NCBI RefSeq assembly: GCF_000156195.1
Contig: NZ_GG688321.1
Span: forward strand, 226,274-290,273
Reading direction: 5' to 3'
Source of the DNA: Bacteroides finegoldii DSM 17565
GTDB taxonomy: Bacteria > Bacteroidota > Bacteroidia > Bacteroidales > Bacteroidaceae
DNA: 64,000 bases
Within the stretch, counting starts at the first letter, position 1. Each line of letters opens with the position of its first letter. A program made the position numbers and the translations under genes. Under the pieces are notes generated by a model that was given only the letters and a program-made list of their open reading frames with translations, ran no database searches and was not told the DNA's origin. Positions 9,025-52,876 of this stretch are shown here, one piece after another.

Positions 9025-9119
9025 ACATTTTATCACTAGGATAAAAATATAAATAATAAAATATGATTCTCGTAAGCTGATTTTTTAGCCAAACAAGATA
9101 AAGTTATTAATAAATTCTC

Positions 9120-9127
9120 TAACTTTG
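9120..9127 (+). promoter_or_regulatory. Promoter -7 box for the riboswitch-btuB operon
   Basis: TAACTTTG matches TAnnTTTG exactly and would start transcription at about 9133-9135, just at the 5' edge of the cobalamin aptamer. Confidence 0.7.
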
Positions 9128-9134
9128 TGGCGTT

Positions 9135-9322
9135 AAGGTTTCTTGTTACAGTATATACACTGTTAAGGAATGAAAAGGGAATGCCGTGTAAACCGGCAAC
9201 AGAACCTGCTGCTGTAAATCTCCGCTCCTTGTAATCAGAGAGCAAAATTGCAACACGAAAGTCACTGGATAGTTTATCTGGGAAGGCGTTGCAAAATGGG
9301 ATGAGTCAGAAGACCTGCCTTG
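9135..9322 (+). ncRNA. Cobalamin riboswitch (btuB leader)
   Basis: The leader shows the ordered conserved blocks of the cobalamin aptamer. AAAGGGAA lies near 9175, followed by a GCCG..CGGC hairpin (about 9183-9197), CCTGCTGCTGTAA (about 9205-9217), GTCACTGG and GGGAAGGCG (about 9261-9288). The B12-box-like GAGTCAGAAGACCTGCC closes it at about 9304-9319. In this class cobalamin binding shuts off downstream expression. The exact 5' and 3' boundaries are approximate. It controls btuB and the genes behind it. The btuFCD genes lie upstream and are not covered by this leader. Confidence 0.92.
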
Positions 9323-9409
9323 ATGCTCTGATTTACACCTGCGGGATTTCGGGTAGTAGTCAAATAGAAAATAAGCAATTATCTTTTATTTGGTATAATA
9401 GCTATATGT

Positions 9410-33476: not shown

Positions 33477-34001
33477 TCATTTCTTCTCAAACCGACCAAT
33501 AGAGTGTCCGGCAAGAATCCGATCCAGACTTTCATCCAAAACACCTATCATCTGAAGTTTGGATAATAAATGATAGCCTCTCCCCGATACTATCTCCAAC
33601 AAATCTTTCACCATTCGAACATCTTGATTATACAAGACATTAGCCAACCGGGTATCAGCTACTTTACAAACAGGCAATTGAAGTATCCACTCCTCCTGCC
33701 CAACATTTATATTCTTATTATTGTCTGCCAAAGATAAAAAACGAGCATTGATAGCACGCTTTCGATAAGTAGCCAATATATCTTTCTTCAAATTCAACCC
33801 TTTAAGTATAGAATTATACATTTGTAATATCTTCCCATAGGTAATTCGATGCCGATCAGCCACTTTCGCTACTGATTCTCCTGTAGAAATTGAATAGAAG
33901 ATATCGCGGGTAACAGGGTGAAGAATCAATGTTGCCAGTTCACGAATGATTATTTCATATAGCGGTTTACAAGTGTTCTGTGTTCTCAACACATATAGCA
34001 A
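33477..34001 (-). CDS. Putative regulator: HTH plus RNA-polymerase alpha-CTD-like domain
   Basis: The 174-residue reading frame opens at a TTG and has no recognised family. Residues about 33-70 (RDIFYSISTGESVAKVADRH, then RITYGKILQMYNSIL) resemble a sigma region 4 or LuxR-type helix-turn-helix. Residues about 115-170 (DTRLANVLYNQDVRMVKDLL, LLSKLQMIGVLDESLDRIL) resemble the helix-hairpin-helix of RNA polymerase alpha C-terminal domain. The natural start is uncertain: the frame extends upstream as EFVISKYDDL without a standard start, and an ATG one base out of frame sits at 34032-34030. It is divergent from an HU-type gene, with a repeat array between them. Confidence 0.6.
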   Translation of the reverse strand: MLYVLRTQNTCKPLYEIIIRELATLILHPVTRDIFYSISTGESVAKVADRHRITYGKILQMYNSILKGLNLKKDILATYRKRAINARFLSLADNNKNINVGQEEWILQLPVCKVADTRLANVLYNQDVRMVKDLLEIVSGRGYHLLSKLQMIGVLDESLDRILAGHSIGRFEKK

Positions 34002-34152: not shown

Positions 34153-34200
34153 TTAAAGCACCTCTCTCTTACATAAACTAGCTACTTTTGTAGCACACAT
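34153..34200 (+). promoter_or_regulatory. Promoter of the first HU-type gene with shared 12-bp element
   Basis: TACTTTTG at 34193-34200 matches TAnnTTTG. TTAAAGCACCTC at 34153-34164 is identical to an element in front of the second HU-type gene. Here the element starts 40 bases before the -7 box, against 30 bases in the other promoter. Confidence 0.6.
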
Positions 34201-34201
34201 C

Positions 34202-34306
34202 AATTCGTTCCACAAATATGGAACGAAACAATAACAGATGTGGAACTAAAGGGAAACAACTGTGGAACTAAAAGTCAACAGTTGTAGAACGAATTAACAG
34301 TAACTA
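34202..34306 (+). repeat. 22-bp-periodic repeat array with leading inverted copy
   Basis: TGGAACGAA (34219), TGGAACTAA (34241), TGGAACTAA (34263) and TAGAACGAA (34285) are spaced at exactly 22 bases. An inverse copy, AATTCGTTCCA at 34202-34212, precedes them and forms a perfect 9-bp hairpin with the first. The array follows the promoter, so most of it should be transcribed in the leader of the HU-type gene. It fills most of the 327-base gap 34002-34328, and no other gene is evident there. Confidence 0.8.
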
Positions 34307-34328: not shown

Positions 34329-34931
34329 ATGAGTGCAATATATGACTTATTTGAGACTCCTAGTCCAAACAAAGAAGAGAAACAACCGCTACATGCCCGT
34401 ATTGTCTCCAAAGGAACCGTAGATAAAGAAGAGTTTCTGGATCGTGTCCACAAATTTACCGGTATCAGCAGAAGTTTATTGGCAGGAGCCATGGAAGCCT
34501 TTGCCAATGAAGCACGGGATTTACTAGCCGACGGCTGGAATGTAGAAATGGGAAACTTCGGATTCTTCTCTACATCGTTACAATGTCCGCCGGTTAAAGA
34601 TAAAAAAGAAATTCGGGCAGCGTCTGTCCAAATGAAAAATATTAATTTCCGCGCAAGTCGTCCATTCAAGAAAGAAGTAGGCGACAAAATGAGGCTGCAA
34701 CGAGGAGAATCTATCACACGCCCTAAGAAAAATAGTATCTCCCGTGAGACGTGTCGCGAGCGCCTCAACACATACTTGGAAAATCACCTATTCATCAGCC
34801 GGACAGATTATAGCCATCTGACAGGACGAAATAAAAAAGTAGCTATTGAAGAATTAAATTCCTTTATCACTGACGGAATAATCCAAAAGGAAGGGGTTGG
34901 AAAGTTGACTGTATATATAAAGGTATATTAA
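34329..34931 (+). CDS. HU-type DNA-binding protein with C-terminal extension
   Basis: The 200-residue protein has an HU/IHF-like core (about 25-120: GTVDKEEFLDRVHKFTGISR, DGWNVEMGNFGFFSTSL, RASRPFKKEVG), of the Bacteroidetes HU-related DNA-binding class. A C-terminal stretch of about 75 residues (SRETCRERLNTYLENHLFIS, RKVAIEELNSFITDGIIQK-like pattern) looks like a small winged-helix or Zn-ribbon-free HTH. It probably binds DNA as a nucleoid or regulatory protein. Its leader carries the 22-bp repeats, which may be its own binding sites. The function in the cell is unknown. Confidence 0.75.
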   Translation: MSAIYDLFETPSPNKEEKQPLHARIVSKGTVDKEEFLDRVHKFTGISRSLLAGAMEAFANEARDLLADGWNVEMGNFGFFSTSLQCPPVKDKKEIRAASVQMKNINFRASRPFKKEVGDKMRLQRGESITRPKKNSISRETCRERLNTYLENHLFISRTDYSHLTGRNKKVAIEELNSFITDGIIQKEGVGKLTVYIKVY

Positions 34932-35111: not shown

Positions 35112-35591
35112 ATGGCACTTAGATACGTCATTAAAAAAAGAACATTCGGCTTTGATAAAACTAAAGCTGAAAAGTATGTAGCACAAAATGTAATCACCAA
35201 TACGGTGGATTTCAGAGATTTGTGCGAGGAAATCACCAAAGTAGGAATGGTCCCCAGTGGAGCGGTAAAATTTGTACTTGATGCTTTGATCGATACATTA
35301 AATCTCAACCTTAGAAAAGGCATCTCTGTTCAATTAGGAGATTTCGGATGCTTCCGTCCTGGTATGAATTGCGAAAGTCAGGATACTGAAAAAGAGGTAG
35401 ATAGCGATACGATACGCAGAGTGAAAATCATTTTCACTCCGGGCTACAAATTCAAAGAGATGCTAAGTAAAGTCAGTGTTCAAAAAGCGGTGGCTTCCGA
35501 TGATGGTTCCATCAGCCCGGAGCAACCGGATCCCAACCCGAATCCAAACCCGGATGACGGCAAAGGAGAAGCACCGGACCCGGCAGCATAA
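35112..35591 (+). CDS. HU-HIG-type DNA-binding protein
   Basis: The 159-residue protein begins MALRYVIKKRTFGFDKTKAE and contains ISVQLGDFGCFRPGMNCESQ and VKIIFTPGYKFKEMLSKVSV. This is the usual pattern of Bacteroides histone-like HU-HIG proteins (core about 1-125). The tail (about 130-159) is rich in Pro, Asn and Asp (PDPNPNPNPDDG) and is probably disordered. It should bind DNA, though most family members have no defined role. It shares a promoter element with the preceding HU-type gene but has its own -7 box and a hairpin after the stop. Confidence 0.82.
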   Translation: MALRYVIKKRTFGFDKTKAEKYVAQNVITNTVDFRDLCEEITKVGMVPSGAVKFVLDALIDTLNLNLRKGISVQLGDFGCFRPGMNCESQDTEKEVDSDTIRRVKIIFTPGYKFKEMLSKVSVQKAVASDDGSISPEQPDPNPNPNPDDGKGEAPDPAA

Positions 35592-52838: not shown

Positions 52839-52876
52839 AAAGTAAAAGATTAAAGTAAAAGATTAAAGTAAAAGAT
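52839..52876. repeat. 13-bp tandem repeat (three copies)
   Basis: AAAGTAAAAGATT is repeated at 52839, 52852 and 52865 (the last copy is one base short). It lies in the 368-base stretch 52720-53087, where no gene was found. Copy number of such tracts often varies between strains. Confidence 0.8.

Follow-up and report, generated by a model that had tools for sequence, protein, structure and literature searches.

The locus lies on contig C29 of the source genome, a Bacteroides genome (G000), within a stretch of 64 kb that was analysed as a whole (the window). It comprises a gene for an HU-type protein with a predicted C-terminal winged helix (HU-wHTH), an array of short repeats in the 5′ leader of this gene, a probable promoter box in front of the array, and a second HU-type gene downstream. 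All features are listed in Table 1.

Table 1. Features of the HU-wHTH locus, numbered from the first base of the window
Feature	Position	Strand	Basis
TACTTTTG, TAnnTTTG box, probable promoter of the HU-wHTH gene	34183..34190	+	sequence
Whole 22-bp-phased array, probable operator array	34202..34296	+	sequence; ungapped orthologous arrays in 10 genomes
Inverted first copy (TGGAACGAA on the − strand, TTCGTTCCA on the + strand)	34204..34212	−	sequence
Repeat 1, TGGAACGAA	34219..34227	+	sequence
Repeat 2, TGGAACTAA	34241..34249	+	sequence
Repeat 3, TGGAACTAA	34263..34271	+	sequence
Repeat 4, TAGAACGAA	34285..34293	+	sequence
HU-wHTH gene (200 aa), probable cognate protein of the array	34329..34931	+	Pfam, predicted model, structure comparison
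HU-HIG gene without winged helix, downstream of the HU-wHTH gene	35112..35591	+	Pfam

The array consists of four direct copies (TGGAAC(G/T)AA or TAGAACGAA) with one inverted copy on their 5′ side. Exact 22-base steps between the four copies had been claimed in the first-pass annotation and were found at all four starts. The inverse copy had been described there as an 11-nt perfect complement of repeat 1; the reverse complement is perfect over the 9 nt given in Table 1, and the longer span (34202–34212) matches at 9 positions only. When positions identical to the base 22 nucleotides further on were counted throughout the window, the strongest stretch was the one starting at 34212 (46/66 positions), followed by a score of 36 in a simple-sequence run at 52849; with lags of 20, 21, 23, 24, and 25, the maximum anywhere in the 64 kb was 35. 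TGGAACNAA occurs nine times in the window (2.9 expected), four times within the array (inverted copy and repeats 1 to 3). Both periodicity and position agree with the earlier description of an array that lies in the leader of an HU-type gene and whose phasing suits cooperative binding. Repeat number and spacing are kept in relatives: 10 orthologues of the window gene show a T.GAAC.AAA-like core at 22-base steps, and their array interiors align free of gaps. The bases preceding the core change together within one array, being CAnnTG in some orthologues and CCTAGG or CCCGGG in others (compared by eye). No significant dyad was detected in the repeat unit of the window array when its self-complementarity was compared with that of column shuffles (p 0.42). 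The second-best 22-base periodicity of the window stems from a simple AAAGTAAAAGATT run at 52840–52875.

The HU-type identity of the gene at 34329, proposed earlier, was confirmed by Pfam: the protein is a member of PF18291 (HU-HIG; E 1e-37, 129.4 bits, curated cut-off 26.2), and HU families were the only matches up to E 1. The HU domain covers residues 1–125, and a winged helix is predicted for residues ≈135–200 (secondary structure H139–152, H158–165, H169–181, E185–188, E195–198). The mean pLDDT of the predicted model was 59.7, with values of 72–85 over most of the C-terminal part and low confidence in the HU half. Structure comparison of residues ≈135–200 returned chains at Z 8.2–10.5 (best 10.5), including ArsR-type and Zalpha chains, which we take to be winged helices; judged by this model, the protein belongs to the HU-wHTH subgroup. 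A Foldseek search with the whole model, the HU part of which is of low confidence, gave nothing at E ≤ 0.001; TubR was among its rows at E 0.016. The closest solved chain by sequence was an HU protein (E 0.008), and an HU protein 99 % identical to that of the window was found in B. xylanisolvens XB1A (L068). The HU-wHTH domain family was reportedly described by Burroughs and colleagues in 2017; no paper on the function of HU-wHTH proteins was found in literature searches, as judged from their listings. The ORF at 33477, whose product had been proposed as a possible ligand of the array, matches no confident Pfam family (LysM at E 0.06). Among the fetched loci, relatives of this ORF were limited to G110 and to G021, where the sequence is divided between two frames; the array is therefore unlikely to belong with this ORF, and the proposed role of its product found no support.

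The TAnnTTTG box, which we take to be the Bacteroides −7 box type, is separated from the inverted copy by 13 bases. Among 107 HU-wHTH leaders (defined below), such a box was present within −80 to +20 of the array start in 76 (≈5 expected per 100 nt), and 62 of these boxes end 10–30 nt upstream of the array start; in the 100 bases downstream of the array the box was found in 3/107 leaders. The median scored array window extends from −175 to −87 relative to the start codon. From the box positions and this median span, the array is placed at the start of the transcribed region, where a repressor site would lie.

The window array is no one-off but follows a rule that holds across the family; the first-pass annotation had recognised the array as such, and had missed both this rule and the array copies elsewhere in the genome. 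HU-wHTH matches at E ≤ 0.001 were obtained in 99 of the 119 genomes of the genus. The upstream set comprised 110 loci (30 and a further 80 from among the matches listed, weaker ones being left out), and 107 of these remained once redundant loci and those with fewer than 150 upstream bases had been set aside. Best periods were determined by comparing lags of 8 to 44, with 11, 33, and 44 excluded. Lag 22 was best in 105/107 of these upstream regions from Bacteroides (failures: L270 and L291), compared with 0/107 coding starts, 3/107 shuffled controls, and 4/47 unrelated genes from loci of Y1 transposases. Among the ORFs of the window it was best for 4/49, one being the 34329 gene and the other three reaching this result by one match. 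A strict cut-off was passed by 99/107 HU-wHTH leaders and by 1/47 background genes.

Near full-length HU-wHTH paralogues number eight in G000, 14 in G086, and nine in G044. A fuller sample of these three genomes added to the window gene 30 near full-length relatives with identities as low as 21 %; 10 of them overlap the set of 107. The best lag was 21, 22, or 23 in 25/26 (L341 and L349 by small margins) and 22 in three of four more genes; the near full-length genes without an array were L352, an interrupted gene, and L369. Another sample, in which some genes had been counted before, gave an array at 14/15 full-length HU-wHTH genes (miss: L425). Outside the genus, a clear 21–22 bp array was found at six of nine near full-length relatives from other Bacteroidales families (L392, L394, L395, L397, L406, and L413). 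The count was set at six because L401 (lag-22 score 39, or 31 with another start codon) and L400 (36 at lag 21) were weaker and L396 had no array. No recognisable report of an own-array rule for PF18291 HU-HIG/HU-wHTH genes was retrieved in full-text literature searches.

The architecture is constant across paralogues and the repeat sequence differs (TGGAAC, ACTATAGT with varied spacers, CCACGG, ACAGCTGT, CACGTACGTG, GGTCACGCAAC, and others). Array sequence varies together with the protein: in Mantel tests with 105 genes, array k-mers correlated with HU distance (r 0.34) and with winged-helix distance (r 0.30; both p 0.001), the partial correlations being 0.23 and 0.17, respectively. The 55 nt before the ATG, used as a control, were uncorrelated with either domain (r 0.03 for HU, 0.06 for the winged helix). 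Descent confounds this co-variation, as well as the co-occurrence described below, and can explain part of it; since the flank control is uncorrelated, descent should not be the whole cause. Self-complementarity of the unit exceeded that of column shuffles at p < 0.05 in 73/103 arrays.

These results bear on the question of which protein would read the arrays. Another DNA-binding protein, such as a regulator common to the arrays or the product of the downstream HU-HIG gene, is an unlikely reader. Relatives of the 35112 HU-HIG gene do lie near many HU-wHTH genes, and arrays were also found at some HU-only genes (4/12 of the shorter ones, and L362) and in Porphyromonas uenonis, where 22-bp GTTCC/GGAAC arrays occur at 13 fetched loci and the HU-wHTH profile gave three matches, none of them full-length and none with an array. 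However, a single shared reader hardly explains distinct repeats for each paralogue, and the array sequence tracks the HU-wHTH protein. No 22-bp array was found upstream of the 35112 gene itself (L365). The Bacteroides MAG G113 contains scattered 11-bp GGAACGAACAT arrays unlike any of its three full-length leaders read; together with the P. uenonis loci, this means that some such arrays belong to no HU-wHTH protein. The P. uenonis arrays (L020, L024, L027, L032, and nine more loci) follow the pattern GTTCCTCCCTTGGAACTAAAAA, and a tail (GGAACTCGTAT...) recurs with them; in the MAG BRZ_SL__bin118 the 11-bp GGAACGAACAT arrays (L031, L040, L089, L129, and L130), at half the usual step, each follow an inverted block.

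Elsewhere in the source genome, arrays of the window type separate fbp from a convergent gene and precede asnB and an alpha-rhamnosidase-like gene. A-type arrays are located at C14, at C29:25282, and on C32 (before a malate-dehydrogenase-like gene, mdh), and the A-type HU-wHTH gene at C21 has an array in its own leader. The general ACTATAGT pair pattern was detected in 12 of the 18 genomes searched, and its reversed control in none of the 18. An asnB-leader array is shared by G000, G110, and G082, and an asd-leader array by G086 and G082, with individual spacers flipped between the species (by eye). Occurrence of the arrays goes along with that of the genes. The A-type pattern was matched in 14/14 genomes whose A-type HU-wHTH gene is intact (own leader counted), in at least 11 of them at a second place away from that leader, compared with 5/105 genomes without an intact A-type gene (G001, G073, G076, G091, and G086, the last of which retains a truncated relic of the gene); in G057, which has a broken A-type gene, the pattern was unmatched. 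For the window type, sorted by eye, the agreement is less close: arrays were present elsewhere in 8/8 genomes that contain an orthologue at 67 % identity or higher and in ≈6/111 genomes that contain none (G001, G009, G044, G059, G076, and G091). The scattered arrays of the same type may be extra binding sites, which would form a small regulon, or relics of copied leaders or of lost HU-wHTH genes. Their place before genes is only suggestive, because intergenic insertion would look alike; the arrays at fbp, L330, L332, and L333 lie outside leaders.

As a rival, the reading was kept in which the arrays, as selfish or mobile repeats similar to MITEs or REPs, spread with HU-wHTH leaders and have no regulatory function, since 9 of the 11 scattered A-type arrays in G082 (L372–L382) form two groups with a common flank of ≈60–190 bp on each side, in either orientation, and the other two have ≈45–60 bp in common. 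Such flanks are as compatible with a mobile repeat as with a regulon. In a window-type copy in G082 (L386), a stop comes directly after the leader and the initial codons of the gene, and gene relics lie near array remains at L370 and L371; from L386 and the shared flanks it follows that arrays do get copied. Lack of a regulatory function is nevertheless improbable: arrays stand almost universally behind the promoter within one gene family, each paralogue having a different sequence, the exact phase is retained in 10 orthologues, and the asnB-leader array differs at only 5/91 positions between G000 and G082. Plain mobile elements with inverted ends were set aside as the main reading; HU-wHTH leaders have their own repeat types. 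Single spacers are inverted between L205 and L206 and between L328 and L377, as if recombined at palindromic ACTATAGT sites.

The results on Y1 transposases also speak against a mobile repeat. PF01797 (Y1_Tnp, TnpA-REP), present in 26/119 Bacteroides genomes, had no match in G000, and GGAAC 22-bp arrays were found within up to 1.5 kb at none of the 30 Y1 loci that were fetched from 39 listed places; membership in the REP/RAYT systems was supported by neither test. These systems (PMC6006769) resemble the present one in that a protein gene adjoins repeats with copies elsewhere in the genome, and differ from it in that here no Y1 transposase is matched in the own genome, the protein is of the HU-wHTH type, and the repeats have a 22-bp tandem architecture. 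In G018, a Y1 gene and a 22-bp pair lie ≈3 kb apart on one contig, which was taken as chance. BrickBuilt, a minisatellite/MITE of Porphyromonas gingivalis, consists of scattered copies of 23-nt intergenic tandem repeats with a leader and a tail with IS5-like inverted ends; PGN_0871 and the HU-family gene PGN_0872 flank its copy 14, which is 84 nt long (PMC4596501). Scattered intergenic tandem repeats and the proximity of copy 14 to an HU-family gene are common to both cases, whereas the unit here is 22 bp and of another sequence (by eye), so that the BrickBuilt consensus is not shared. Copy 14 at PGN_0872 may mean that the array rule extends to P. gingivalis.

An RNA switch, formed in the leader transcript by pairing between the inverted 5′ copy and one repeat, had also been suggested earlier and is very improbable. 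The array does sit in the 5′ leader, which folds better than shuffled sequences (z −2.8), and in nine distinct orthologues the first hairpin still pairs in 75/81 cells, as conserved repeats would in any case. In the same nine orthologues, however, six cells are broken and compensatory changes were found in 0/9 pairs. No Rfam match at gathering scores was obtained at the array. The strict helical phase, the inversion of spacers from one species to another (asd locus) and between L205 and L206, and the presence of related copies in either orientation as well as between genes that converge likewise speak against pairing in RNA, and the suggestion was not upheld.

It is considered reasonably probable, from sequence comparison and a predicted model, that the array serves the 34329 gene as a private operator, that the HU-wHTH protein binds it cooperatively in negative autoregulation, and that the scattered copies are further sites or relics. 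The HU domain would dimerise and bend DNA, accompanied by the winged helix within the same 200-residue protein, and cooperative binding of this protein to the 22-bp-phased repeats in the 5′ leader of its own gene would take place on one face of the DNA. Because the array starts shortly after the −7 box, the occupied array would most likely block the promoter or early transcription, resulting in negative autoregulation. Each paralogue would do so with a repeat sequence that is nearly always its own and an architecture common to all. Cooperative autoregulation is the simplest reading of a presumably dimeric HU domain with a winged helix, sites two helical turns apart, units that are often self-complementary, a promoter-proximal position suited to a block, and co-variation of array and protein.

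Comparable arrangements are known. The iteron arrays of plasmids such as R6K, with 22-bp iterons for the pi protein, are bound by a winged-helix Rep protein and have an inverted copy at the promoter of its own gene, which is autoregulated. Here, too, a winged-helix protein (as predicted), tandem sites two helical turns apart, an inverted copy at the promoter of the own gene, and autoregulation (as predicted) would come together. Unlike iterons, the present arrays are chromosomal and belong to many paralogous pairs with different sequences, the protein has an N-terminal HU domain, and the Pfam matches of the 34329 protein up to E 1 include no replication domain such as an initiator would have. 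In the ParR-parC and TubR-tubC systems, tandem repeats are situated at the promoter from which the DNA-binding protein is expressed. Short tandem repeats in this position are shared with the present system, which differs in its 21–23 bp step, its HU domain, and its chromosomal paralogues.

Since nearly every HU-wHTH protein comes with a phased array of its own, the rule predicts the DNA target of each, and this little-studied family becomes testable protein by protein. The pairs would also provide a natural series of possibly orthogonal proteins and operators in which the evolution of DNA specificity in an HU-type protein can be followed. Possible target genes suggested by the scattered copies are asnB, mdh, and asd, and these copies also hint that a DNA-binding protein, instead of a transposase, accompanies the spread of the repeat family. 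A further-reaching proposal is speculative and rather unlikely: the sets of HU-wHTH proteins and arrays might be mutually orthogonal protein–repeat pairs in which the repeats spread under the care of their own protein, as a counterpart of REP/RAYT without a transposase, the protein keeping, copying, or bridging the arrays, organising the nucleoid, and recruiting core metabolic genes.

A scan of viral contigs confirmed no relative. In Clostridia and relatives (L088, L092, L103, L105, and L108), TGGAACC/TGGAACGAA occurs at 22-bp steps adjoining a TGTCAATA-like end; these repeats resemble what we take to be IS21-type terminal repeats and may be such. Within the window, a cobalamin riboswitch (RF00174, 92 bits) is located at 9119–9336 on the + strand.
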